Source: Actinomycetota bacterium | GTDB taxonomy: Bacteria > Actinomycetota > Actinomycetes > Nanopelagicales > Nanopelagicaceae | NCBI GenBank assembly: GCA_009704505.1 | Contig: WLEB01000008.1 | Location: forward strand, 1 to 33,018 | Length of the DNA stretch: 33,018 bases | Direction: 5' to 3' | In this document: positions 15,237-30,932 of the stretch, in pieces | How the letters are laid out: each line of letters begins with the position of its first letter | How positions within the stretch are numbered: the stretch's first letter is position 1 | Made by a program: the position numbers and the translations under genes | The notes under the pieces: generated by a model | What the model was told of the DNA's origin: nothing | The model's input: only the letters and a program-made list of their open reading frames with translations | The model's database searches: none

Positions 15237-18200
15237 TTAACGCGTAAAAGCTTCAAGTAATAATGCTTTCTGTTCATCCTCATGAAGGTGATGACTTCCA
15301 GTAGCTGGAGAGGCAGTAGCTCTGCGAGAAATTCGGCGAAGAGTTCGTGCTCCAAATCCACGACCGCCATGTGCATCAGAAGTTCGAAGCGCAATATGTG
15401 ACCATGGTCCTTGATTTGCAGGCTCGTCTTGTACCCATAACAGATTGGCATTTGGATGCTTGTTTGCTTCAGCAACCATTTCATCAATTGGAAGTGGATA
15501 GAGAAGTTCTACTCGAACAATTGCTGTTGAGTTTTCTCCCATTTTTGCGCGCTCTGCAACTAAGTCGTGATAAATCTTTCCAGAACAGAAAATTACACGT
15601 GATGCATTACTGACAGTGGGATCACCAATAACTGGTTGGAAATAACCGCTAGTAAAATCACTAAGAGATGATGCTGCAGCCTTTAGTCGAAGCATCGATT
15701 TAGGAGTAAAGACAATCAATGGACGACGAGTTGGGTTCTTAGCGTGCCAACGAAGCAAGTGGAAATAGTTTGCAGGGCTTGCAGGTTGGGCAACAGTCAT
15801 GTTTTGTTCGGCGCACAACTGTAAATATCTTTCAATACGAGCAGATGAGTGATCTGGTCCTTGACCTTCATAACCGTGAGGCAAGAGTAAAACTAATGAA
15901 GATCGCTCGCCCCATTTTTGCAACGCTGAAGAAATAAACTCATCGATCACAGTTTGGGCACCGTTTGCAAAATCTCCGAACTGGCCTTCCCATAGAACTA
16001 ATGCTTCTGGGCGCTCAAGACTGTAACCATATTCAAATCCCATGGCAGCGTATTCGCTAAGTAGTGAGTCAATAACGAAGAATTGGTTTTCATCGCTAAT
16101 GAGTGAACGAAGAGGTGTCCATTCATTTCCATTTTCTTTGTCAATGATGACTGCATGGCGATTTGAGAATGTTCCACGACGTGAATCTTGACCAGCAAGT
16201 CGTATCGGATGCCCTTCTTTAAGAAGGGATCCAAAAGCAAGCATTTCTCCGGTGGACCAATCAATTGTTGCATCGTTAAGTGACTCAACTCTTTTCGCCA
16301 ACTGTGGAGTCAATTTAGGATGAACATGGAAGCCTTCTGGAACTGCAGATTGAGTTGCTGCAATCTCACGAGCAACGCTCTCTGGAATTGCAGTCTCGAT
16401 TGCCGTTGGATCAGGAGGCACGGGAGCCTTGAAGTTAGCATCAGAATTGAAATCAGTATTGGTTAATGATGCAAATACAGATTCGAGCTGAACCTGATAA
16501 TCACGTGCGATCTCTTCGGCCTCTACAGGTGTGATGTCGCCGCGACCGACCAAGGCCTCTGTGTAAAGGGTGCGAGTTGATCTCTTAGCATCTACTAATT
16601 TATACATCAATGGCTGAGTAAAGCTTGGTTCGTCACCTTCATTGTGACCGCGGCGGCGATAGCAAATCATGTCAATGACAACATCTTTATTAAATGCTTG
16701 ACGATATTCAAAAGCTAATCGTGCTACCTGAACACATGCTTCTGGATCATCACCATTTACGTGGAATACAGGTGCTTGAATTATTTTTGCAAAATCTGTT
16801 GAGTACTGGGATGTGCGAGAAGATTGTGGCCCAGTTGTAAAGCCAACTTGATTGTTGATAACGATATGAACGGTTCCACCTGTTCGGTAACCACCCAAAC
16901 CTGACATCTGAAGCACTTCAGCATTAACGCCTTGTCCTGCAAAGGATGCATCTCCATGCAAAAGTACGGGCAGAATTGAAAATGCATTCTTAATGTTGAG
17001 TCGATCTTGTTTTGCTCGAACAATTCCTTCAAGCACTGGGTTAACTGCCTCTAAGTGAGAAGGATTTGCTGCCAAATAAACTTTGGTTTGAGATCCAGAT
17101 TCAGCTGTAAAGACACCTGATGTGCCTAAGTGATACTTAACGTCACCAGATCCGTGGATTTCATTTTCAGCATAATGGCCTTGGAACTCTTGAAATATCT
17201 GCCCTGCTGATTTGCCGGCAACGTTTGCTAATACATTAAGGCGTCCACGGTGTGGCATACCAATACAAACTTCATCCAAACCTTTTTCAGCAGCTGCTGA
17301 AATAACTGCATCAAGAAGTGGAATAACTGATTCTCCACCTTCTAGAGAGAAACGCTTTTGTCCAACAAATTTTGTATGAAGGAATGATTCAAAAGCCTCT
17401 GCACTGTTTAATTTGCGCAAAACGCGTAACTGTTCTTCACGCGGCAGCTTGGCATAACCCACTTCGACACGCTCTTGAATCCATTGACGCTCTTGCGGTT
17501 CTTGTATGTACATGTATTCAACGCCAACTGATCGGCAATATGCATCACGGAGAATTCCTAGAATTTTACGAAGTGGCATGAACTTCTTGCCACCAAAGCC
17601 ACCGGTTGCAAACTCGCGGTCAAGATCCCAGAGAGTTAATCCGTGTGTGACTACGTCAAGATCTGGATGAGATCGTTGCATATAAACCAATGGATCTACA
17701 TCTGCAATCAAATGACCAAATGTGCGATAGGCCTGAATTAACTGCTGAACACGTGCAGTTTTATTGATCTCTTCGTCTCTAGTAAATGCAAAATCTGAAG
17801 ACCATCGAATTGGTTCATATGGAATGCGAAGTGCAGCAAAGATTTCGTCATAAAAACCTTCGGCGCCCAGCAGATATTCATGCATGCGTCGCAAGAAATC
17901 ACCTGACTGTGCACCTTGAATGACTCGGTGGTCGTAAGTACTTGTCAGAGTAATGACCTTGCTAACTGCCATATTGGCGAGTGTTTCTTCACTGGCACCT
18001 TGGAACTCTGCTGGGTAATCCATTGCACCAACGCCAAGAATTAAACCCTGACCTTGAACAAGTCGTGGAACTGAATGAACTGTTCCAATAGTTCCTGGAT
18101 TAGTAATCGACATAGTCGTTCCGGCAAAATCCTCAACGGCTAAAGTTCCAGAACGCGCCTTTTTAATAACTGCTTCATAGGCGCTCCAAAACTGTCCGAA

Positions 18201-18959
18201 ATCTAACTCTTCGCAGCCTTTAACAGAAGGCACTAGTAATTGCCGTGAGCCATCAGGCTTTGCTAGATCAATCGCAATTCCTAAATTCATATGTTCTGGT
18301 TTACCGATCGCTGGCTTTCCATCGATCTCACCATAAAATGCATTCATCTCTGGCATCGCTCTAACAGCTTTAATCATTGCGTAAGCCACAATGTGTGTGA
18401 AAGAAACTTTGCCGCCACGTCCACGAGCTAAGTGATTATTAAGAACTATTCGATTATCAATCATTAACTTTGCAGGAACAGCGCGCACTGATGTGGCTGT
18501 TGGAACAGAAAGTGATGCCTCCATCGATTGAACAACGCGAGCGCCTACTCCACGAATTGGTTCTAACGTTGAAGCCGATGGCGTGATTAAAACTGGAACT
18601 GGCTTAACAATTGGATCAGCCGGTGTTGCAGGCGTTAATGCATTCTCGCGCACAACCGGTTGTGTTGATTGAGGTGTTGCTACTGGTTGGGAAACCTGTG
18701 CAGCTGGTGCTTGTGCCGCTGGTGCTTGCGGTGCTGCAACTTGTGGTGCACGTTGGGCAGCTTTTGGAATTGGTGGAGTTGGTGGTGTGTTCTTATTGGC
18801 CGAAGTATTTAGTCCAGCGGCAGAGCCAACAGCTGAAGCCGGTTTATTTGTTTTGAAGTACTCAATCCATGCAGGGTCTACAGAAGAAGGATCTGCCAGA
18901 TAATGCTCGTACATTTCATCTACGAGCCAATCATTTGCGCCAAAATCCTGTGCCGACAC
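15237..18959 (-). CDS. kgd: Multifunctional 2-oxoglutarate metabolism enzyme (E2-like acyltransferase plus 2-oxoglutarate decarboxylase/dehydrogenase E1)
   Basis: N-terminal FGANDWLVDEMYEHYLADPSSVDPAWIEYF, Pro/Ala-rich linker, acyltransferase segment (TYDHRVIQGAQSGDFLRRMHEYL), then E1 (GMPHRGRLNVLANV, GDASFAGQGV, CYRRRGHNEGDEPSFTQP). GTG at 18959 preceded by AAAAGGAG is the likely start; the track ORF extends to 19073. Confidence 0.95.
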   Translation of the reverse strand: MSAQDFGANDWLVDEMYEHYLADPSSVDPAWIEYFKTNKPASAVGSAAGLNTSANKNTPPTPPIPKAAQRAPQVAAPQAPAAQAPAAQVSQPVATPQSTQPVVRENALTPATPADPIVKPVPVLITPSASTLEPIRGVGARVVQSMEASLSVPTATSVRAVPAKLMIDNRIVLNNHLARGRGGKVSFTHIVAYAMIKAVRAMPEMNAFYGEIDGKPAIGKPEHMNLGIAIDLAKPDGSRQLLVPSVKGCEELDFGQFWSAYEAVIKKARSGTLAVEDFAGTTMSITNPGTIGTVHSVPRLVQGQGLILGVGAMDYPAEFQGASEETLANMAVSKVITLTSTYDHRVIQGAQSGDFLRRMHEYLLGAEGFYDEIFAALRIPYEPIRWSSDFAFTRDEEINKTARVQQLIQAYRTFGHLIADVDPLVYMQRSHPDLDVVTHGLTLWDLDREFATGGFGGKKFMPLRKILGILRDAYCRSVGVEYMYIQEPQERQWIQERVEVGYAKLPREEQLRVLRKLNSAEAFESFLHTKFVGQKRFSLEGGESVIPLLDAVISAAAEKGLDEVCIGMPHRGRLNVLANVAGKSAGQIFQEFQGHYAENEIHGSGDVKYHLGTSGVFTAESGSQTKVYLAANPSHLEAVNPVLEGIVRAKQDRLNIKNAFSILPVLLHGDASFAGQGVNAEVLQMSGLGGYRTGGTVHIVINNQVGFTTGPQSSRTSQYSTDFAKIIQAPVFHVNGDDPEACVQVARLAFEYRQAFNKDVVIDMICYRRRGHNEGDEPSFTQPLMYKLVDAKRSTRTLYTEALVGRGDITPVEAEEIARDYQVQLESVFASLTNTDFNSDANFKAPVPPDPTAIETAIPESVAREIAATQSAVPEGFHVHPKLTPQLAKRVESLNDATIDWSTGEMLAFGSLLKEGHPIRLAGQDSRRGTFSNRHAVIIDKENGNEWTPLRSLISDENQFFVIDSLLSEYAAMGFEYGYSLERPEALVLWEGQFGDFANGAQTVIDEFISSALQKWGERSSLVLLLPHGYEGQGPDHSSARIERYLQLCAEQNMTVAQPASPANYFHLLRWHAKNPTRRPLIVFTPKSMLRLKAAASSLSDFTSGYFQPVIGDPTVSNASRVIFCSGKIYHDLVAERAKMGENSTAIVRVELLYPLPIDEMVAEANKHPNANLLWVQDEPANQGPWSHIALRTSDAHGGRGFGARTLRRISRRATASPATGSHHLHEDEQKALLLEAFTR

Positions 18960-19048
18960 TGGCAAGCTCCTTTTGCATTGACTAGGGTCTAAGCCTATAG
19001 GCAGTGGCCAGCATGCATAAACATTTGATTTCATAGCCTTCAGGGAGA

Positions 19049-19822
19049 TTGGCCACAGTAATTCAGGCGCCATTTACCCCCAAAATACGGCACAGTTTGG
19101 CTATGGGATTAGCCGTAGTTACTGGTGCCAGTCGAGGCCTAGGTTTTGAAAGCGCTAAGGCTCTAGCAAGTGCAGGCTTTGATTTAGCCATGATCGCAAA
19201 AGATCCAACACGGCTATCTCTTGCTCAGCAGAAATTATCTGAGAGTTTTCCCAATCAGAAATTTACGACTTATCAGGTTGATCTAGAGGATATACCTGCC
19301 ACCAGAGCGATCGCCGAAAAAATCACTTCTCAAGAACAGACCCCTGAGATTTTAATGATTGCCCATGGCGTTATGAGTGAAAAAATGTCTAAGACATTAA
19401 AGACTAACGATCATGAATGGCGACGAGTTATGTCAATTAACTTGGATTCTGTTTTCACTCTGGTAAATGCCTTGATGCCTGCAATGGTTGATGCCAGAAA
19501 GGGCCGAGTAATTATCTACTCAGCATGTTTGGGGAGAATGTCTGGTCCTGGAACTGCAGGCGGCCTTGCTCCTTATCGAATTAGTAAAGCGGGCGTAAAT
19601 GCATTTGTAAGAAATCTAGCCCATGAAACAGGTCTTGGTTCGCGTGGAATTTTAGTTGATGCGATTTGTCCCAACCATTCAGCAACTGACATGGGAGGCC
19701 CTGATGCACCCCGCACTGCCCAAGAGGGTGCTGCAACTGCAAACTGGCTAGCTCTTCGCGAGTTTAATCCAGGAGATACAACTGGCGTTCTATGGGAAGA
19801 CAACGAAATAGTTCCTTGGTAA
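19049..19822 (+). CDS. Short-chain dehydrogenase/reductase
   Basis: Rossmann TGASRGLG, YRISKAGVNAF active site. TTG start at 19049 or ATG at 19103. Confidence 0.87.
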   Translation: MATVIQAPFTPKIRHSLAMGLAVVTGASRGLGFESAKALASAGFDLAMIAKDPTRLSLAQQKLSESFPNQKFTTYQVDLEDIPATRAIAEKITSQEQTPEILMIAHGVMSEKMSKTLKTNDHEWRRVMSINLDSVFTLVNALMPAMVDARKGRVIIYSACLGRMSGPGTAGGLAPYRISKAGVNAFVRNLAHETGLGSRGILVDAICPNHSATDMGGPDAPRTAQEGAATANWLALREFNPGDTTGVLWEDNEIVPW

Positions 19823-19854: not shown

Positions 19855-20232
19855 TTAAACATCAGTTGGAATCGCACGTAATGTTGCAACCAATGTTGTC
19901 AGTGCAAGTAGGGCTAATCCTGCAGCTACAAACCACAACTGTGCCTGCAACATATATGTAACAACACCTAGCGCAATCAGATTTGCTAGTACTGAAGGCG
20001 ATCTTCCAAAGTACTTTCCTTTGCGATAACCAATAGCTGAAATAGCTAATCCACCCGAACCAAGAAGTGCAAACAAGAGCACACCCAATAGAGGTAACAC
20101 CTCAAAGGAATCGGCAAAAATTGTTAGCCCTACTAACCACAACGCTAAAGCAAAAATCACTCCAGCCTCAAGGAACAGTAGGGTTGCCACTAGTGCGCGC
20201 GCTTTTGCTGCTTTGACAGAATCTGAGTTCAC
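19855..20232 (-). CDS. Small multi-pass membrane protein of unknown function
   Basis: 125 aa, about four hydrophobic segments. Confidence 0.6.
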   Translation of the reverse strand: MNSDSVKAAKARALVATLLFLEAGVIFALALWLVGLTIFADSFEVLPLLGVLLFALLGSGGLAISAIGYRKGKYFGRSPSVLANLIALGVVTYMLQAQLWFVAAGLALLALTTLVATLRAIPTDV

Positions 20233-20247: not shown

Positions 20248-20646
20248 TTAAGCAGCACTCTCATCACGTTGCTTAGAGATCAAAGTCAGTTCAATTAACT
20301 CACCTTGGTCATCTCGTGCAGCAATTTCTTTGAGTGATGGACGACCAGCTTTACGCTTTTTAGCAATGATGCGACCATCTTCAAATAGTTCACCACCCCA
20401 AACGCCAGCAGGTTCTTGGCGAGATAAAGCCCCTTCTAAACACTGTGCGCGTACGGGGCATCCCCCACATAGTGATTTAGCTTGGGCAACTTCCATCTCG
20501 TCTTCAGAAAAGTAGAGTTCTGGATCGCTACTGTGACATGGCAAGTTAAATGAAGAGCCATCGCTGTAGGTGCCTGTTACGGCGTCTAAGCCAATCTTTT
20601 CATCTGCCCAGCCTGGTACTAATAGTTCACTGAAGAGAACGCTCAT
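20248..20646 (-). CDS. whiB7: WhiB-family Fe-S transcriptional regulator, WhiB7-like
   Basis: Four Cys (LPCHSSDPELYF...SLCGGCPVRAQCLEGAL), EPAGVWGGELFEDGRIIAKKRKAGRPSLK (GVWGGE turn and AT-hook-like RKAGRP), next to uvrD2 as in mycobacteria. GAGGTGA ribosome-binding site. Confidence 0.85.
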   Translation of the reverse strand: MSVLFSELLVPGWADEKIGLDAVTGTYSDGSSFNLPCHSSDPELYFSEDEMEVAQAKSLCGGCPVRAQCLEGALSRQEPAGVWGGELFEDGRIIAKKRKAGRPSLKEIAARDDQGELIELTLISKQRDESAA

Positions 20647-20769
20647 GTTCTCACCTCTTTTTTCTGGGAAATCATCTCTCCCTGTTGGCCGATTGTTATC
20701 GGGTACTGCTTCCGGTCTTTCTCTTATGGGTTATTTGTCGTTACTCGTGTGAGTTTTGTTCTTTATAGA

Positions 20770-20809
20770 AAAAGAAAAAGGGCTCCGAATCCTTGTGGAT
20801 TCGAGGCCC
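20770..20809 (-). terminator. Intrinsic terminator/attenuator in the whiB7 leader
   Basis: Minus strand: GGGCCTCGAATCC-ACAA-GGATTCGGAGCCC followed by TTTTTCTTTTTC. 4 bp plus 7 bp stem around a 2-nt mismatch. Confidence 0.8.
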
Positions 20810-20832
20810 TTGGCTTCTAGTTCTATATCGAA

Positions 20833-20988
20833 TTAATCGATGGAACCACCATTGGCCTCTTGTCCGGCATAAAACGCTGCATAAAACGCAGGCTTTGAAG
20901 TATGCCAAGAAGACTTTTTGGTTGTATGAGAAGGAGTGATCGCAGCAGAACGCTGTGCGTTTGCTGTTACGAATGATGCGTTAGACAT
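20833..20988 (-). CDS. Upstream small ORF (51 aa) in the whiB7 leader
   Basis: MSNASFVTANAQRSAAITPSHTTKKSSWHTSKPAFYAAFYAGQEANGGSID*. AGAAGGGG ribosome-binding-like sequence upstream; terminator about 24 nt after the stop codon. Confidence 0.7.
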   Translation of the reverse strand: MSNASFVTANAQRSAAITPSHTTKKSSWHTSKPAFYAAFYAGQEANGGSID

Positions 20989-21105
20989 ATTCGTTGACCC
21001 CTTCTCTCATCTTAACTACCCGCCATGGATAGTGAAGTGACAATGGTAAAGCATGGGCGACCTTACTTGCAAGGTGATTAATTTGAGCCCACAGAGCCTA
21101 AAAAG

Positions 21106-22785
21106 CTAGCTGATCAGCCCTGCCTCAACTAAAAATCGTGAGGGTTTTCCGCGATAACTAAGGTGCAGATCTTTCTTGGCCCGTGTAATTCCGACATAGA
21201 ACAAACGTCTTTCTTCATCAATTGAGGCTTGGTCATTTGTGGTGCTGTTATTTTCTAAAGGCAATATGCCCTCGCTAGCACCCATAAGAATTACACGCTC
21301 CCATTCCAGGCCTTTTGCCGCATGTAAAGTTGCAAGAGTTGTAACTGGCATTGTTGGCGGGTTATTTTGACTCACCAAATCTTCTACTTCACGCAAGTAT
21401 GTGCGCAAATTCTTAGGTGAAAATGAACTGTCGCTATCTAACTCTCGAGCCAGGTGTAAAAGTGCGGCAATTCCATCAATAGATCCACCAGTTAAAAATG
21501 GTTGGGCAAGGGTGCGAAGTTCATCAAGCCACTGAACTCCTTGTGTTGGAATAACTGATGCATTTCGAACCACTCGAAGAAATTCACGCACTTCTTTACG
21601 ATCAAAAAAGCGTTCAGTATTTCGAACTTGATTTGGTAAGTTTGCAGCGTTCATAGCTTTTTCTAAACCATTAAGTTGGTTATTCGTTCTGGCCAATACG
21701 GCAATTTCTTGGGGCGGAACACCATCTTTAATTAGTTCAGTAATCTCTCGAATGATGCCAGCAATCTCTGCTGACTCATCGCTGTAGGCAGTGATCGTTG
21801 GTTTTGATCCATGCTCATTTACCGCAACTAACTCGTTACCCATGGCACCTTTGCGCAAAATACTATTTGCAGTGAATATGATTTCAGGTGTGGATCGATA
21901 GCCAGTTGTTAAGCGGATAACTTCAGCATCTGGGAATCTGTTTGTGAAGGAATTAAGGAAAACCGGTGTTGCTCCAGCAAAAGAGTAAATTGTTTGTGCA
22001 GGATCACCAACTACACATAATTCCTGGCGGCTTCCAAGCCAAGCATTAAGTAAACGCTGTTGCAGCGGGGAAACATCTTGATATTCATCAACAGTAAAGA
22101 AGCGATATTGATCCTGAACTCGCTCCCGTACTTCACGTTCTTGCTCGATCATGGCAGTGGTTAGAAGCAAGACGTCTTCAAAATCAATTGCTCTTTCTTG
22201 ATGTTTAACACTTTCATAGGCGGTGTACACCTTTGCTAACTGTTCTGGATTAATGCGCGGTTTAACTGTGCGCTTCACAGATTCTGTTAAATAGTCCGAA
22301 GGTGCAATTTGTGAAACTTTTGCCCATTCAATCTCAGTTGCAATATCGCGTAGTAGATCACGGGATGCTATTGAAAGTTCGCCTTGAAGTTGAGCCCGCT
22401 TGATTGCCTCAGTTAAAAAGCTTGATTTTGTAGTGATTAGATCAGGCGTGCGACCACCGAAAACCTGAGGCCAAAAAAACGTTAACTGCTTTAACGCTGA
22501 AGCGTGGATTGTGCGTGCTGCAACCGATGGAACACCTAAAGATCGCAACCGTGCGCGCATTTCTCCTGCAGCGCGAGCAGTAAATGTAAGTGCAAGAACT
22601 TTATGAGGATCCATCGTTCCTATTGCGGCGGCATATGCGATTCGGTGAGTAATGGCGCGTGTTTTTCCGGTACCTGCACCAGCAATTACACAGACGGGTC
22701 CGCGAGTTGCAAGTGCAACTGCGCGTTGCTCGTTATCTAGAGCGTCAAGAATTTCTTCTGCCCGAACGTTGCCTACGGTCTCCAC
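21106..22785 (-). CDS. uvrD2: UvrD/Rep-family SF1A helicase, UvrD2-like
   Basis: 559 aa. Walker A GAGTGKTRAITHRIAYA, DEYQDVSPLQQRLL, GDPAQTIYSFAGA, TLHAAKGLEW, VGITRAKKDLHLSY. Confidence 0.88.
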   Translation of the reverse strand: METVGNVRAEEILDALDNEQRAVALATRGPVCVIAGAGTGKTRAITHRIAYAAAIGTMDPHKVLALTFTARAAGEMRARLRSLGVPSVAARTIHASALKQLTFFWPQVFGGRTPDLITTKSSFLTEAIKRAQLQGELSIASRDLLRDIATEIEWAKVSQIAPSDYLTESVKRTVKPRINPEQLAKVYTAYESVKHQERAIDFEDVLLLTTAMIEQEREVRERVQDQYRFFTVDEYQDVSPLQQRLLNAWLGSRQELCVVGDPAQTIYSFAGATPVFLNSFTNRFPDAEVIRLTTGYRSTPEIIFTANSILRKGAMGNELVAVNEHGSKPTITAYSDESAEIAGIIREITELIKDGVPPQEIAVLARTNNQLNGLEKAMNAANLPNQVRNTERFFDRKEVREFLRVVRNASVIPTQGVQWLDELRTLAQPFLTGGSIDGIAALLHLARELDSDSSFSPKNLRTYLREVEDLVSQNNPPTMPVTTLATLHAAKGLEWERVILMGASEGILPLENNSTTNDQASIDEERRLFYVGITRAKKDLHLSYRGKPSRFLVEAGLIS

Positions 22786-23744
22786 GATTGCTCGCCTTGC
22801 AAGTCGTTTCGTGAATAACCATCAACTCGCGTGTACCAAGATTCAATCATTCTTCTTGCTACTGAAATTCCTGGTGGCAACAAAATTTCACCGGATGCAA
22901 CAGTCTGTTTCATTTCATCCCGACTAAGCCAACGCACTGCAGTTATCTCTTGACCATCTGGGCGCGCATCTTGTGGACGCTCAGCAAATGCTTCGAATGC
23001 GATCATGATTGATGCTGGAAATGGCCACGGCTGAGAAGTAATGTACTTTACTTGCGATGGATAAACTCCCGCTTCTTCAAATACTTCTCTGGAAACGCAC
23101 TCTTCGAACGACTCACCTGTTTCAACAAAACCTGCAAATGTTGAGAAGCGCTTCTCTGGCCAAATTGGTTGATGGCCTAACAAAATACGATCTTCTGCAT
23201 CTCTAACAAGTACGATAACTGCTGGATCAGTTCGAGGGTGATGTTGTGTTGAATCCTCGACACATACACGAACACTTCCTCCAAGATCGCTCACCGTTTG
23301 TGCCCCGCATTTGGAGCAATGCGTATGGTTTTCATGCCAATTAGCTAATCCAACTGCATGCATTGCAAGAGTTAAATCCTCGGCATCCAAATTGCCACCA
23401 ACTTCACGCAATGTTTTGAAACCTTGGTACTTGTCTTTTTCAAAATCTCCTGAACCATCATCAATCGGCTGATTTATCCAGGTTGTACGCCAAGCAAAAT
23501 ATGGCTGATCATCATCACGACTAGTACCTAGAAAAAAACGCTCGCCTTCAATAAAGATGCCTAAAAGTTCTGAGACTGCAGGTGCATCGATAAAAGTTAA
23601 GGCATCGTTAGTGGCGCTAAGTCGGGCATCTACTAGCTGAATAATCTGAGCCTTCTTCCAGAGTTGCTCCAATTTTGCGGCATCGGTACGTAAATCGCTG
23701 CCACGATCAATTGGTGAAAGATTGAGTTCACTCATAGGAGACAA
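22773..23744 (-). CDS. nudC: NAD(+) diphosphatase (Nudix)
   Basis: 323 aa. HCSKCGAQT zinc-ribbon remnant, Nudix box GFVETGESFEECVSREVFEEAGV, SQPWPFPASIMIAFEA (NudC SQPWPFP signature). Confidence 0.93.
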   Translation of the reverse strand: MSPMSELNLSPIDRGSDLRTDAAKLEQLWKKAQIIQLVDARLSATNDALTFIDAPAVSELLGIFIEGERFFLGTSRDDDQPYFAWRTTWINQPIDDGSGDFEKDKYQGFKTLREVGGNLDAEDLTLAMHAVGLANWHENHTHCSKCGAQTVSDLGGSVRVCVEDSTQHHPRTDPAVIVLVRDAEDRILLGHQPIWPEKRFSTFAGFVETGESFEECVSREVFEEAGVYPSQVKYITSQPWPFPASIMIAFEAFAERPQDARPDGQEITAVRWLSRDEMKQTVASGEILLPPGISVARRMIESWYTRVDGYSRNDLQGEQSWRP

Positions 23745-24624: not shown

Positions 24625-27600
24625 CTACTTGCTCTGAACTTTAATGTCAGAGATTAGCTGAACAAGATCTGCTTCATTCAATAAATCTACTGGCTGATCA
24701 GTTATGCCAGTTGGAACGTAGTGAAAAGCTGCACTGACCTTTGAAAGTTCACATCCAGACAGCTTTGCCCACGCCAATCGATACATTGCTAGTTGAACTC
24801 GCGCAGATTCTCCTAATTTCTTTGAACCAGTTTTCCAGTCCACAACTTGATAACCATCTCCGTCTGAATAAATCGCATCTATTCGCCCTCGAATTAAAAC
24901 TCCAGCAATTGTTGTTTCAAATGGGACCTCAACACGGACAGGAGTTCGTGATGCAAAACTGCTCTTGAGCCATGATGCTTTTAGGTTTTCTAATGTTGAG
25001 TCATCTTCTAATGGATCTAAATAATCTAAATACTCATCACCAAACAAAGTTGCCGCATCAGAAAACTCTCGCTCCACCCATAGGTGAAAAGCGGTCCCTC
25101 TGCGAGAATACTGATCTTGGCCACGTGGCATGGGTCTGCGAATATTGAGTGCAAGTGCAACTGGGTCTTCATGGAGAGCAACCAAAGTCGATGTTGAAAG
25201 TCTGGTTGGAAGAGCAACCTCGATTACATCTTTTTTTTGCAGCTGTTGCTCTGTGATTAGTGATTTGGCATCTAAAATCCAGGAATTTACTTCTTTATTT
25301 TCACTTTCCGTTAATGGTTGCTCGGCCACTTGATTAAAGAGATCAACTGCGGTGTTAAATTGTGACCTCTTCTCTCCTAAGTAATCACGGGGCCATTGGG
25401 CGCTCTGAGGATTTTCAAGAGTTGGATTTTCGTCGCCTTCTTCAGGTGCAGGAACATCTGAAATCAATAAGCCGCCATTACTACTAGCTGATGCTGCAAT
25501 TATGTTGAAAATATTGCTAGGTACGACAGATCGTGAACCATCACGCCACCATGACGCCGTGCACAAAAGATGAGTCCTTGCTCTTGTTATTGCAACGTAT
25601 GCAAGACGCATCTCTTCACGCATTTTGATGTGATCTACACATTGGGTGCCAAATGCTTTGATTGCTTTTGCTGCTTCGCTGTTCTTCTCAATCCCATCAA
25701 ATGAAAATGTAGGAAGCTCTAGCGCGTCACCCCTTAGAGGAAATGGAACATGTTTTTCATTTTTCAACCAATTATCTGGATCGCTTTTGTTCACTCCAGG
25801 AAAAGTGCCCTCTGATAATCCCGGAACAGCAACTACATCCCATTCGGCACCTTTAGCCATGTGAACTGTGAGAATCTGAATCACATCGGTTCGCACTTCG
25901 GGTGCTCCAGCTTTAAGACCTGCCTCTTCATCCGATGCAACATCTAACCAATCTAGAAAAGCCGAAATAGATCCTCCTGATCGCTGAAATTTCGCGGCTT
26001 CATCTAAGAATCGATCTAGGTGCCTGCGACCAGTTTGTGAACCCTCACGCAGGACAATTTCTGTTTCTAGCGTTAAATAGTTTTCAATCTCGGTTATCAA
26101 ATCAGTGATCTGTCCACCTGAATAGGCACGTAATCGTCGAAAATCCTGTGCAAAAACAACTAAACGTTGATATCCAATGTCGCTAAAGGGAAAGTGTTTT
26201 GCCAGAGTTATCTCATCAAGTGCATCAATGATCGAGCCGCTGAATTGATCGTCAGCTTCTAACTGCTCTGGATTTCCTGCAGCAATCTTTTTTATGAAAC
26301 TCTTTGAATCAGCGTGAACTGATTTTGCTCGTTCTCGGCTAAATGAACCTAAAGCAGCGATGTCGCGTGGACCTAAATTAATTCGTGGACCAGTTAAATG
26401 GCGCATTAAAGAGGAACCAGCATCTGGATCTGTAATTATCTTCATTAAAGTAACAACATCGGCGACCTCTGGTATTTGGATTAGTCCACCAATTCCAATT
26501 ACTTCAACAGGTAATCCTTGTTGGCGCAGAGCGATTTCGATTGCAGGAATCTGACTACGCTTTCTAACAAGGACCGCGCATGACTTCAAAGCAGCTGGAT
26601 CCCATAGATTTTTAAAATACTCTCCAATTGCTGCAGCTTCGCTTTCAATCGTTTCATACACTCCATAAGAGAGTTCGCCAGCACCGGCACCGTCCCGTGC
26701 TTGAAGTTCTACAACTTGTTGCCCACCGCTGCTCTTAATCAGCTGACCCACTGCATTTGCTGCTGTCAGAATTATTCTGTCATTTCGAAATGTTGTTGGA
26801 AGTGAAAAAGTATGCGTTCCGTTTTGATTATCTATCTTTGGAAAATACTTTCCAAAAGATGCCATTGTCCCTGCTGATGCTCCGCGCCAGGTGTAGATGG
26901 CTTGAGAAGGATCGCCCACTGCCATGACTGGATGTCCAGCACCATATAGTGAAGAAAGCATTCGAACTTGTGATTGTGATGTGTCTTGATATTCATCTAG
27001 TAATACAACTTTGTATTTGCCACGCTCTAAGGTTGCAACATCTGGAAAGTTTTCTGAAATGTCTGCTGCTAGTGACATTTGGTCATCAAAAGAGAGTTCT
27101 CCTGCATCCTTGCGCCTTTGTAAAAAGCTTTCCACCATTGGAAGAAGAGCATTTCGCTGCTGCATTGCACGAACTACTGCTCGAGTTTCTTCATTTGTAC
27201 TGCCTGAGAACCTCTGCATCTGTTCTAACATTTCGTTATCAATTCTTTCAATGTCTGCTGGCTTTACTTGGTGTTCTAACATGAACTTTGAAAGACCTAA
27301 TAAATCTTTAATAACTGTGCTTACTGCGCTCTGATTGCGATAAGAATCATCTGCCCAGTTGCGAACAACATCGGATGCTATTTGCCAGATTGCAGCCTCA
27401 CCTAACGGCTCTGCATCAGCATCGATGCCATAGCGAATAGCATGTTCACTTAGAAGTTTGCCCGCATAAGAATGATAGGTAGTTACGTTCGTTCCAACAG
27501 ATGAAATGTGTTTAAACTCTGGTAGCTGTGCAAGTTGTCGCAAGCGCTTACGTATTCGAACCGAAAGTTCACCTGCAGCCTTGCGCGTGAATGTAAGTCC

Positions 27601-27834
27601 CAAAATTTGATCTGGTGTCGCTAAATCATTTGCCACTAGATATAAAACTCGATTGCTCATGGTCTCGGTTTTTCCAGAGCCAGCACCTGCAACAACCACT
27701 ACTGGTTCTAGACCACTTTCAATAATCTCTGCCTGGTGGCTTGTAATTGGTTTGATTTGTGAACCAAATTTAGGGTGAGCCTGTAATTTGGCAATAATTT
27801 CTTGCGGCGAGAACTTCACTTTGTCATTACTCAT
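24625..27834 (-). CDS. adnB: AdnB-like helicase-nuclease (UvrD/Rep motor plus PD-(D/E)XK nuclease)
   Basis: 1069 aa. GAGSGKTETMSNRVLYLV, LLDEYQDTSQSQVRML, GDPSQAIYTWRGA, TVHMAKGAEWDVV; C-terminal nuclease GRIDAIYSDGDGYQVVDWKTG...QLAMYRLAW. Confidence 0.9.
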   Translation of the reverse strand: MSNDKVKFSPQEIIAKLQAHPKFGSQIKPITSHQAEIIESGLEPVVVVAGAGSGKTETMSNRVLYLVANDLATPDQILGLTFTRKAAGELSVRIRKRLRQLAQLPEFKHISSVGTNVTTYHSYAGKLLSEHAIRYGIDADAEPLGEAAIWQIASDVVRNWADDSYRNQSAVSTVIKDLLGLSKFMLEHQVKPADIERIDNEMLEQMQRFSGSTNEETRAVVRAMQQRNALLPMVESFLQRRKDAGELSFDDQMSLAADISENFPDVATLERGKYKVVLLDEYQDTSQSQVRMLSSLYGAGHPVMAVGDPSQAIYTWRGASAGTMASFGKYFPKIDNQNGTHTFSLPTTFRNDRIILTAANAVGQLIKSSGGQQVVELQARDGAGAGELSYGVYETIESEAAAIGEYFKNLWDPAALKSCAVLVRKRSQIPAIEIALRQQGLPVEVIGIGGLIQIPEVADVVTLMKIITDPDAGSSLMRHLTGPRINLGPRDIAALGSFSRERAKSVHADSKSFIKKIAAGNPEQLEADDQFSGSIIDALDEITLAKHFPFSDIGYQRLVVFAQDFRRLRAYSGGQITDLITEIENYLTLETEIVLREGSQTGRRHLDRFLDEAAKFQRSGGSISAFLDWLDVASDEEAGLKAGAPEVRTDVIQILTVHMAKGAEWDVVAVPGLSEGTFPGVNKSDPDNWLKNEKHVPFPLRGDALELPTFSFDGIEKNSEAAKAIKAFGTQCVDHIKMREEMRLAYVAITRARTHLLCTASWWRDGSRSVVPSNIFNIIAASASSNGGLLISDVPAPEEGDENPTLENPQSAQWPRDYLGEKRSQFNTAVDLFNQVAEQPLTESENKEVNSWILDAKSLITEQQLQKKDVIEVALPTRLSTSTLVALHEDPVALALNIRRPMPRGQDQYSRRGTAFHLWVEREFSDAATLFGDEYLDYLDPLEDDSTLENLKASWLKSSFASRTPVRVEVPFETTIAGVLIRGRIDAIYSDGDGYQVVDWKTGSKKLGESARVQLAMYRLAWAKLSGCELSKVSAAFHYVPTGITDQPVDLLNEADLVQLISDIKVQSK

Positions 27835-30800
27835 TTCTCATTCACCGCCCGTCCATCACTTTGAACTGGGCAGGATTTTCTAACAGAGCAACCCTTACAG
27901 CGTTTATTAACAGTGGCGAAGAAGGTTGCAGCGGCCATACCTTCGCCAATACTTTCAATCTTCTCTTTTATTTCTTCTATATTGATAGATCGCTGTTCAC
28001 GAATAGCAGCTCCTGCGCTATCGGTGCCTAAGTAGACAAGTTCTGCTCCTGCACTAGTCACTCCATCGCTAAATCCACCCTCTGCAATCCCTAACTGATA
28101 GCTAGCTAATTGAAGGTTCTTCTTGGCCTCTTCCTTTGTAATGGCTGTGTTGCCGGTTTTAAAGTCAATTATGAAAAGTGAACCATCTGCTTCAACTTCA
28201 AGTCGATCGACTGTTCCAATGATTCGAGCACGACCTAGTTTTATATCAAACCGAATTTCTGCGCCTTTAACTTCTCGCGGTGTTTGTTTGTGGTACTCGA
28301 CGAATTTTTCTAGCATTGTTACTGCGGTTTCTAAGTTTGAAGCACTTACCCAACCACTATTGGGATCAATTAATTTCCATGAACTTTCTAAACTAGCAAT
28401 TAACTCACTCTTTGATGTCCCTGGTTGCTCCACCATCTTTGCTGCAAAAGCGTGAATGGCAGAACCCAGTATCTGCGCAGAGCTGTCTCCATCTGTTCCG
28501 CCGTTGTTTTGTAAAAACCACTTAACGCCACATTCAATAAATGATTCTGCTCCGCTTGGAGAGACAATAACTTCCTTATCGCTATCAATCACAGGCAGAT
28601 CGCTACTTAATGCAACAGCGCCAATCCAACTATCAGGATGTGCTAAAACAATTCCGTTATTACTCATTGACTTAAGGAGTTGCGCAGCAGTTTGTGCATT
28701 CTCACCATGTAACTGTGCGCGCAGTTCTGCCACCAATGCTGGAACTGTTATAGGGCGAGGTACCTCTGTAACAACTCTAGACTCTTCTTCATCTTCGTGA
28801 AGCATTACTTCGATTGCTTCAAAAAACTGTGAAGGTTCTTCATCTTCTCGCTGGACTGCAGTTATCAAAAGTGTTTGTGTTGCACGTGTTAGCCCAACAT
28901 GAAATAAACGTTGCTCATCTTGCATAAGGCCATTGGCTGCAATTACATCTAATTGATCGCGTGGAATATCTGGATTGCGATCTCGTTCTACTAAGCGTTC
29001 TGCGCCCAATAATGTAGATCGTTGCTTAAGGTTTGGCCAGGTACCTTCTTGTAAACCTGCAATTGCAACTAAATCCCACTGACGTCCTTTTGCACTGTGA
29101 ACTGTCAGAATTTCAACAAAATCAGGTCGAACACCCTTTGCCGTAATTACATCCCCTGCAATATCTTCAGTAGAGATTTCATTTATAAATGCAGCAGGTC
29201 CTGATAATGGAAAACGCTCTGAAAAACGTGCAGCGCTATCAAATAACTGCATTACGGCATCTAAATCTCGATCAGCAGCAGCTGCGCGTAATCCAAAGCG
29301 CAGAGATTGGTTTTGCCATGCGCTAGATAATTTCTGGCCATCACTAGTAACTGCGTTGTCCCAGATAGCCCACAAAAGTTCATCGGCCGTTGCTTTTTTA
29401 TTTCGTGCTACCGCCCGGGCGCTTTTCAATAGTTTATGGACCCGCAGCACACTTTCGGCGCCTTCGATGTTTAAATCTCCGTCATCGATGGCATCAATTA
29501 GTAACTGCGCGCCCGATCTTTCATCACCTTCTGGGCGCGCGGTGATTAGTGCTCTGCGAATTCTCCGTAGTGATATCGAATCGGCTCCGCCAAACTCACT
29601 GAGCAATAATCGCTCTGCGGTATCTAGATTGAGAGGTTGTGAATTGATTGCTACTCGAGCTAAAAGTAAATATGGAGAGATCGCAGGATTTCCAGCTAAC
29701 GCTTGTAACTCTGATGCAACTGGAATTCCTACTTGTGAAAAGGCTCTTCGAAGCGCCGACGCTGTTACTCCTGGAGTACGAAGAATCACGGCCATTTTGC
29801 TGTATTCGATACCGCCGCGAAGATGGGCACTACGAAATTGATGGGCAATAAATGCCGCCTCTTCTGCCCCCGATCTAAAGCGATGAACACCGACGTGGCC
29901 AAGATCTTTATTAACGCACGTTCTTTTGCGTGTCAGAGAGGAGCCGCGAAAACTTTGTACATAACTACTGCCAACTTCACATACTGCCTGGGAGTTTCGA
30001 TACACATTGCTCAGAACAAACTCCTGTGAGCGATAAGGATCCATCGCGCGCGCTAATCCATCTGGATCTGCACCGCGAAATCTACCCACGCTGCTATCTG
30101 CATCTGCGCAGATAACTAGGTCTTGACCTGCAAGTAAAGATAAAAGTTCGCGTTGTGCTGGATCTGTTTCTTGAAACTCATCAACCATTATTGTTGTAAA
30201 TCTTGTGCGAAGTTGGTCTAGCAATTCTGGGTTATTGCGCAGATGCAGTGAGGCTCGAGAGATGATCTCGGATGGATCAATTCTTAGTTTTGCATCTAGA
30301 GCAGAGATCTCGCGCATGACCATCGAATTGACGTATCGCTTCCAAAAAGCGGCTGCGGCAGACCAATACTTTTCACCCTCACTTTGCCCGAGTTTGGCTA
30401 ATTGATCCGGACCTATTCCACGCTCTGATGCTCGCAAAATTAAATCGCGAAGCTCTCGAGCAAAACCATGTGTTGTGAGCGCTAAGTGAAGATCTTGTGG
30501 CCATTCTTTATAGCCATCGTCAATGTCGCCCTGAAGTAGTTCTCGGATATAGCTTTCTTGTTCTGGGCCACTGAGCAAAATCGGATCGGGATCACCTTTT
30601 GCTTTCATCTTTAAAATTGAAAAGGCAAGTGAATGAAACGTGCGAGCCAATGGTTCAAACATTGTTTTCGTTGTGCGCAATGCAATTGCATCACGAAGTT
30701 GTGAAGCTGACTCACGACCAAATGTGATGAGTAAAATTGAATCAGGATTTTGTCCTGCATTAATCCGTGAAAGTGCAGCTTCAATTAGCACCGTTGTTTT

Positions 30801-30932
30801 GCCTGTGCCAGGACCACCTTGAACAACAACTGGCCCACCACGGTATGCAACTATTGCAGCCTGCTGGCTATCGAGTGCAACCGGAGCAGCCTGAAGTACT
30901 TGTCGTACTAGGGTAAACGGCGCTTTACTCAC
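27831..30932 (-). CDS. adnA: AdnA-like helicase-nuclease with C-terminal Cys cluster
   Basis: 1033 aa. GGPGTGKTTVLIEAALSRI, MVDEFQETDPAQRELL, TVHSAKGRQWDLVAIAGLQEG; nuclease GTVDRLEVEADGSLFIIDFKTG...QLASYQLGI; CKGCSVRKSC plus upstream ECGVKWFLQN. ATGA overlap with adnB. Confidence 0.9.
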   Translation of the reverse strand: MSKAPFTLVRQVLQAAPVALDSQQAAIVAYRGGPVVVQGGPGTGKTTVLIEAALSRINAGQNPDSILLITFGRESASQLRDAIALRTTKTMFEPLARTFHSLAFSILKMKAKGDPDPILLSGPEQESYIRELLQGDIDDGYKEWPQDLHLALTTHGFARELRDLILRASERGIGPDQLAKLGQSEGEKYWSAAAAFWKRYVNSMVMREISALDAKLRIDPSEIISRASLHLRNNPELLDQLRTRFTTIMVDEFQETDPAQRELLSLLAGQDLVICADADSSVGRFRGADPDGLARAMDPYRSQEFVLSNVYRNSQAVCEVGSSYVQSFRGSSLTRKRTCVNKDLGHVGVHRFRSGAEEAAFIAHQFRSAHLRGGIEYSKMAVILRTPGVTASALRRAFSQVGIPVASELQALAGNPAISPYLLLARVAINSQPLNLDTAERLLLSEFGGADSISLRRIRRALITARPEGDERSGAQLLIDAIDDGDLNIEGAESVLRVHKLLKSARAVARNKKATADELLWAIWDNAVTSDGQKLSSAWQNQSLRFGLRAAAADRDLDAVMQLFDSAARFSERFPLSGPAAFINEISTEDIAGDVITAKGVRPDFVEILTVHSAKGRQWDLVAIAGLQEGTWPNLKQRSTLLGAERLVERDRNPDIPRDQLDVIAANGLMQDEQRLFHVGLTRATQTLLITAVQREDEEPSQFFEAIEVMLHEDEEESRVVTEVPRPITVPALVAELRAQLHGENAQTAAQLLKSMSNNGIVLAHPDSWIGAVALSSDLPVIDSDKEVIVSPSGAESFIECGVKWFLQNNGGTDGDSSAQILGSAIHAFAAKMVEQPGTSKSELIASLESSWKLIDPNSGWVSASNLETAVTMLEKFVEYHKQTPREVKGAEIRFDIKLGRARIIGTVDRLEVEADGSLFIIDFKTGNTAITKEEAKKNLQLASYQLGIAEGGFSDGVTSAGAELVYLGTDSAGAAIREQRSINIEEIKEKIESIGEGMAAATFFATVNKRCKGCSVRKSCPVQSDGRAVNEK

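Follow-up and report, generated by a model that had tools for sequence, protein, structure and literature searches.

The window, a 33,018-nt stretch of DNA analysed here as a whole, carries on its minus strand a whiB7-like gene preceded by a short upstream open reading frame (uORF) and a hairpin, and so raises the question of how expression of this gene is coupled to translation. The first-pass annotation had proposed that the riboregulator known from the whiB7/wblC genes of mycobacteria and Streptomyces operates here too, in what looked like a streamlined environmental actinobacterium. The description of the host is borne out by the assembly, which measures 1.07 Mb (79% complete) and whose named relatives are Candidatus Planktophila and the Nanopelagicaceae; the window comes from a Planktophila-like member of this family.

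The whiB7 gene and its promoter

The gene (20248-20646, minus strand) encodes a 132-aa protein (PF02467, E 5.9e-17); among proteins of solved structure, its closest relative is WhiB7 of M. tuberculosis (E 3.4e-22). All 46 representative WhiB7 proteins contain the four-cysteine Fe-S motif C-X(20-24)-CxxC-X5-C, a G[VI]WGG sequence (GVWGG in the window) and a C-terminal GRP AT-hook, and GRP is absent from two other Wbl proteins of the same genome (L001 and L002). On these features the product is assigned to the WhiB7 (WblC) subfamily of Wbl proteins. The neighbourhood of the subfamily, with uvrD2 and nudC conserved nearby, is also found in the window: a uvrD-like helicase gene in the uvrD2 position (21106-22785, minus strand, PF00580 and PF13361) and an NAD(+) diphosphatase gene (nudC, 22773-23744, minus strand) lie upstream on the whiB7 strand, in the gene order known from M. 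tuberculosis. Adjoining this block are two UvrD-like helicases in tandem (AddAB-like; 24625-30932, minus strand), each with a PD-(D/E)XK nuclease domain, and at 15237-19073 (minus strand) an acyltransferase domain is fused to 2-oxoglutarate dehydrogenase E1, as in the actinobacterial Kgd type. A gene for a 125-aa probable membrane protein (19855-20232, minus strand), which has no Pfam or NCBIfam match, begins 15 nt 3' of whiB7 on the same strand and is possibly cotranscribed with it.

A WhiB7-type promoter was located by pattern matching at 21043-21081 (minus strand), 5' of the uORF, and consists of TTAAT (AT-hook site), N4, TTGC (-35), N20 and TACCAT (-10). This is the sole match in the window, against 0.05 expected, and 43 of the 46 representative leaders have the element at a fixed spacing before their uORF. 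Transcription is inferred to start about 7 nt 3' of the -10 box, near 21036. WhiB7 binds, through its AT-hook, an AT-rich site adjoining the -35 box; the AT-rich site in the window is thus a predicted WhiB7 site, which would allow autoregulation. The strict pattern TTAAT-N4-TTGC-N20-TANNNT marks whiB7 in 25 of the 26 genomes of the window's genus, where it seems to occur once per genome. Its use to define a regulon was rejected, as matches elsewhere in those 26 genomes are no commoner than those of a reversed control; a relaxed pattern was likewise rejected, its frequency not exceeding the control and its matches recurring little outside whiB7 and pairs of close relatives. Any WhiB7 regulon beyond whiB7 itself must therefore use weaker or different sites.

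The uORF, the terminator and the spacer

The 51-codon uORF that had been read from the minus strand, with a ribosome-binding-like sequence before it, stood up to closer analysis. It occupies 20833-20988 (minus strand; MSNASFVTANAQRSAAITPSHTTKKSSWHTSKPAFYAAFYAGQEANGGSID), ends in TAA, and follows a Shine-Dalgarno-like AGAAGGGG (20998-21005) located 9 nt 5' of its ATG, a position at which close relatives also have a G-rich element. The frame, whose conservation had been proposed as a check, is open in every leader that extends across it, with no stop in 2525 codons of the representative leaders, compared with 67 and 96 in the two alternative frames of this DNA. Over 25 gapless uORFs from the window's genus, codons 2-36 (the sensor part) have a dN/dS of 0.45 (1.05-1.27 in shifted frames) and the tail one of 0.31 (0.84-1.19 in shifted frames), and purifying selection acts on the frame.

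A dN/dS below 1, together with residues that are invariant within a genus (e.g. AFYAAFYAG), could also point to a functional small protein. However, uORF length ranges from 27 to over 70 codons across the family, the N-terminal part is alignable within genera only, its sequence and length shifting fast between them, those C-terminal residues that are conserved fall together with the antiterminator and stop hairpin region described below, and the peptide has no match in Pfam or NCBIfam, making such a protein very improbable. The rapid change of the N-terminal part suggests instead that the act of translation is kept, perhaps along with the composition, rather than a fixed peptide.

The uORF is followed, after 21 nt, by an intrinsic terminator (20768-20811, minus strand), comprising a stem-loop (20811-20778) and the U-tract TTTTTCTTTTTC (20779-20768). 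The short gap agrees with the first-pass annotation, which had put it at about 24 nt, and the strong hairpin and T-rich tail reported there are likewise real by folding: the hairpin alone folds with -21.2 kcal/mol, and a 67-nt piece containing the terminator with -30.2 kcal/mol, while its dinucleotide shuffles average -12.7 (z = -6.3, 0/200). RNAalifold on a MAFFT alignment of the terminator was spoiled by indels and returned only 8 pairs, and arm-swap permutations were used instead, by which the terminator arms covary across leaders with z = -12.3.

From the end of the U-tract to the whiB7 ATG at 20646 there are 121 nt, matching the earlier estimate of about 120, and this segment (20647-20767, minus strand) consists of a spacer of 106 nt and the whiB7 ribosome-binding site (GAGGTGAG). 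Identity to near relatives is 84-94% in the uORF, 86-100% in the linker, 95-100% in the terminator and 88-100% in the ribosome-binding site. It falls to 14-47% in the spacer of relatives with a 95-97% identical terminator (two very close relatives, 91%), and to 31-42% in the DNA 5' of the promoter, the two closest relatives excepted. A separate promoter between the terminator and whiB7, raised at the outset as something that could carry most of the expression, was not seen as a conserved element in the leader alignments or as a match in the WhiB7-type promoter scan of the window, and the lack of spacer conservation itself speaks against a conserved one.

Alternative pairings, the proposed switch and its inputs

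The 3' end of the uORF contains a 24-nt segment (20845-20868, minus strand), 36 to 12 nt before the uORF end, which mimics the terminator 3' arm and is complementary to almost all of the 5' arm. The possible antiterminator GAGGCC, proposed earlier as the partner of GGCCTC in the terminator 5' arm, is indeed present at 20859-20854, but it is only the core of a larger element, in which about 24 nt of coding sequence take part in the pairing, accompanied by a hairpin around the stop codon. In the window the duplex between the uORF end and the terminator 5' arm has -22.8 kcal/mol; a 2x2 internal loop breaks its outer part, and arms swapped in from other leaders pair equally well in 22% of cases. 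Over 46 representatives the native pairing averages -21.3 kcal/mol, compared with -16.7 for arms exchanged between leaders and -13.2 for shuffled uORF ends, and outgroup leaders behave alike (-26.5 native, -22.0 swapped). The covariation that had been suggested as a check for both stems is thus present in the antiterminator as well as in the terminator, with z = -10.1 (0/20000 permutations, 46 representatives) for the uORF end and terminator 5' arm. These permutations treat related leaders as independent, for which a test with one leader per genus (z = -4.5) is a partial remedy; a control pairing of the same uORF segment with the terminator 3' arm gave no effect (z 0.4). Coordinated changes between clades include GAGG/CCTC to GCGG/CCGC and CTTGG/CCAAG to CCTGG/CCAGG.

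These observations also bear on a simpler reading, in which the terminator closes the uvrD/nudC operon, the uORF is a chance ORF and whiB7 has a promoter of its own further downstream. The uvrD gene does end only about 120 nt 5' of the uORF, and the terminator does sit between the two genes. However, this reading is already contradicted by the conserved promoter between uvrD and the uORF, the selection on the uORF frame, the covariation of the uORF end with the terminator arm and the unconserved spacer 3' of the terminator, and we consider it scarcely credible.

The hairpin around the uORF stop codon (20819-20847, minus strand, predicted by folding, with an ATCGA-TTAAT-TCGAT core at 20841-20827) lies within the loop of the antiterminator. 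It is present in almost all leaders, with a family mean of -10.8 kcal/mol compared with -4.5 for shuffled sequences (outgroup, -12.1 and -6.5). No priority is claimed for the stop hairpin or for the mimicry of the terminator arm. When the ribosome is stalled upstream, folding of the growing window RNA predicts the antiterminator as the structure of lowest energy up to the point at which only a few bases of the terminator stem are still to be transcribed; with a ribosome on the uORF stop codon, the terminator alone can form. Covariation and folding thus suggest that the antiterminator would exclude the terminator, in a manner sensitive to ribosome position. At equilibrium, the mean predicted terminator probability of full-length leaders is 0.76-0.81 ribosome-free and 0.96 once a ribosome occupies the stop codon; because the terminator is favoured in most leaders even ribosome-free, switching has to depend on the kinetics of folding during transcription.

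Together, the parts, the frame selection, the two mutually exclusive covarying pairings and the promoter support the proposed identity of the riboregulator, and we put the probability at about 0.9 that the element attenuates whiB7 transcription in a translation-coupled manner and is a homologue of the whiB7/wblC uORF attenuator of Mycobacterium and Streptomyces (mechanism summarised in PMC11550727 and PMC13393426). In the proposed mechanism, the WhiB7-boosted promoter would yield a leader RNA encoding the uORF, and a ribosome translating to the uORF stop would occupy the stop hairpin together with the 3' end of the uORF, leaving the terminator arm free to fold, so that transcription would stop before whiB7. 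If the ribosome stalls or is starved in the first ~35 codons, or fails to initiate, the uORF 3' end would pair with the nascent terminator 5' arm, and the resulting antiterminator would allow RNA polymerase to read through and WhiB7 to be made, which would then boost its own promoter.

The composition of the uORF offers clues to the input. Ala, Ser and Thr together make up 46% of the sensor part in family uORFs (53% in the window uORF), compared with 24% in window proteins, and Asp and Glu 1.2% compared with 12% (both p ~1e-23, by a rank test on 37-residue pieces that ignores relatedness). Proline is not enriched in the sensor part, which argues that a preference for C at codon position 2 alone does not explain the composition; Ser codons are almost always TCN, so that there may be a nucleotide-level share. 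Macrolide +X+ motifs (K/R-x-K/R) were rejected as the sensor, being depleted (4 observed, 16.5 expected, in 45 uORFs).

Chloramphenicol and linezolid stall ribosomes when the penultimate residue is Ala or, to a lesser degree, Ser or Thr (PMC8987054), and an Ala/Ser/Thr-rich composition would suit a broad drug detector. Alternatively, the same RNA machinery might sense mainly amino-acid starvation (e.g. of alanine) rather than antibiotics, through slow translation of the Ala/Ser/Thr-rich uORF in the absence of charged tRNAs. Ala accounts for 20% of the sensor part and for 22.6% of outgroup uORFs, amino-acid starvation induces whiB7/wblC in other actinobacteria (PMC11550727, PMC13393426), and alanine starvation induces whiB7 in mycobacteria according to the title of Poulton 2024 (via PMC13393426), so that an alanine-starvation input is conceivable in this lineage. 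However, the uORF lacks the single-codon runs by which classical attenuators of biosynthesis operons work, whiB7 has no biosynthetic role, and the composition suits chloramphenicol- or linezolid-type stalling equally well and so separates neither reading; starvation as the main signal is possible but unlikely.

Initiation may be a further variable. Of 112 family leaders, 37 have their first in-frame start codon 5-10 nt beyond the -10 box, so that about a third of the family would have a leaderless uORF; in 65 the distance is at least 20 nt, and the window uORF, which starts 54 nt after the -10 box, is of this led type. Apparently leaderless uORFs, with a start codon 6-9 nt beyond the -10 box, include L014, L044, L054, L070, L073, L076, L095, L105, L111, L112 and others. 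Such uORFs coexist with Shine-Dalgarno-led ones in the family, and at least one of them (L044) falls in the window's mainly led genus. A fuller proposal would have the family uORF tuned by its amino acids as a broad detector of peptidyl-transferase inhibitors, through stalls at penultimate Ala, Ser or Thr and avoidance of +X+ motifs and acidic residues, with the leaderless part of the family making initiation mode an additional input; this is speculative and rather doubtful.

Distribution and comparison with known systems

WhiB7 homologues were found in 140 of 151 family genomes (81 of the 83 good ones) and in 170 of 197 class genomes; the fairly complete family genomes G008, G013 and G046 have no detectable WhiB7 homologue. 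Among the family leaders retrieved, 147 carry a uORF whose end is followed 8-26 nt later by a terminator, and about 50 of the 52 leaders sampled from the class outside this family share the uORF and terminator layout. The apparent absence of the terminator from L066, L067 and L084 reflects a misplaced whiB7 start, as terminator sequence can be seen where these leaders were cut, and about 10 outgroup leaders were scored as terminator-less owing to a strict T-tail threshold. Leaders from about 35 class families share the promoter, the uORF end, the stop hairpin and the terminator layout. Thus the systems of mycobacteria and Streptomyces are of the kind first suggested, but the relation goes beyond mere similarity to homology across the class, as judged from the sampled leaders. 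No Rfam family matched the window leader near its gathering score, and our literature search found no paper naming Nanopelagicales and whiB7 together.

An attenuator that senses antibiotics and starvation in actinobacteria from soil and in pathogens therefore persists nearly intact in freshwater genomes of 1.0-1.5 Mb, which belong to one of the most streamlined actinobacterial branches; its retention in genomes that have shed much else suggests that whiB7 probably meets a routine need there. The alignment of more than 100 leaders places the antiterminator start about 12 codons before the uORF stop, and this fixed position predicts which stall positions can switch on readthrough. Stalling inside the whiB7 uORF, described as untested in a 2025 paper (PMC12121999), thereby becomes directly testable.

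The closest counterpart is the S. coelicolor whiB7/wblC attenuator (Lee, Lee and Roe 2022, Mol Microbiol 117:179; via PMC11550727, PMC13393426 and PMC12121999). As far as these secondary accounts describe it, it acts on the same gene and likewise has a uORF followed by an intrinsic terminator, with uORF translation governing the terminator/antiterminator switch; the leaderless uORFs in a third of Nanopelagicaceae are a difference from the system so described. The uORFs of Nanopelagicaceae contain more Ser/Thr and fewer acidic residues than outgroup uORFs, and they end in GTWSxIG or GGSx(D/E), not in WSPPV. The mycobacterial whiB7 leader (Dinan 2014, PMC4128351; Burian and Thompson 2018) also has a Shine-Dalgarno-led uORF, a T-tailed terminator, an upstream promoter and a helicase gene upstream, whereas the window leader is shorter (about 400 nt from promoter to whiB7) and its peptide is unalignable with the mycobacterial one save at the end. 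In the ARE-ABCF attenuators (lmrC, vmlR, tiaA; PMC12421871), an antibiotic-stalled ribosome on a short uORF similarly favours the antiterminator, as is predicted here; however, those uORFs have 3-9 codons with the drug stall at the start, while that of the window has about 50, with stalling possible along most of them. In the mycobacterial cysteine operons (Canestrari et al., as cited in PMC13236596), a leaderless uORF controls the downstream gene, as in part of the Nanopelagicaceae, but the sensor consists of Cys codons and the mechanism is described in that citing paper as translation attenuation, and the window leader is not leaderless. The element is thus the known whiB7/wblC attenuator in a new lineage, with lineage-specific details in its uORF composition, leaderless forms and strict promoter motif.
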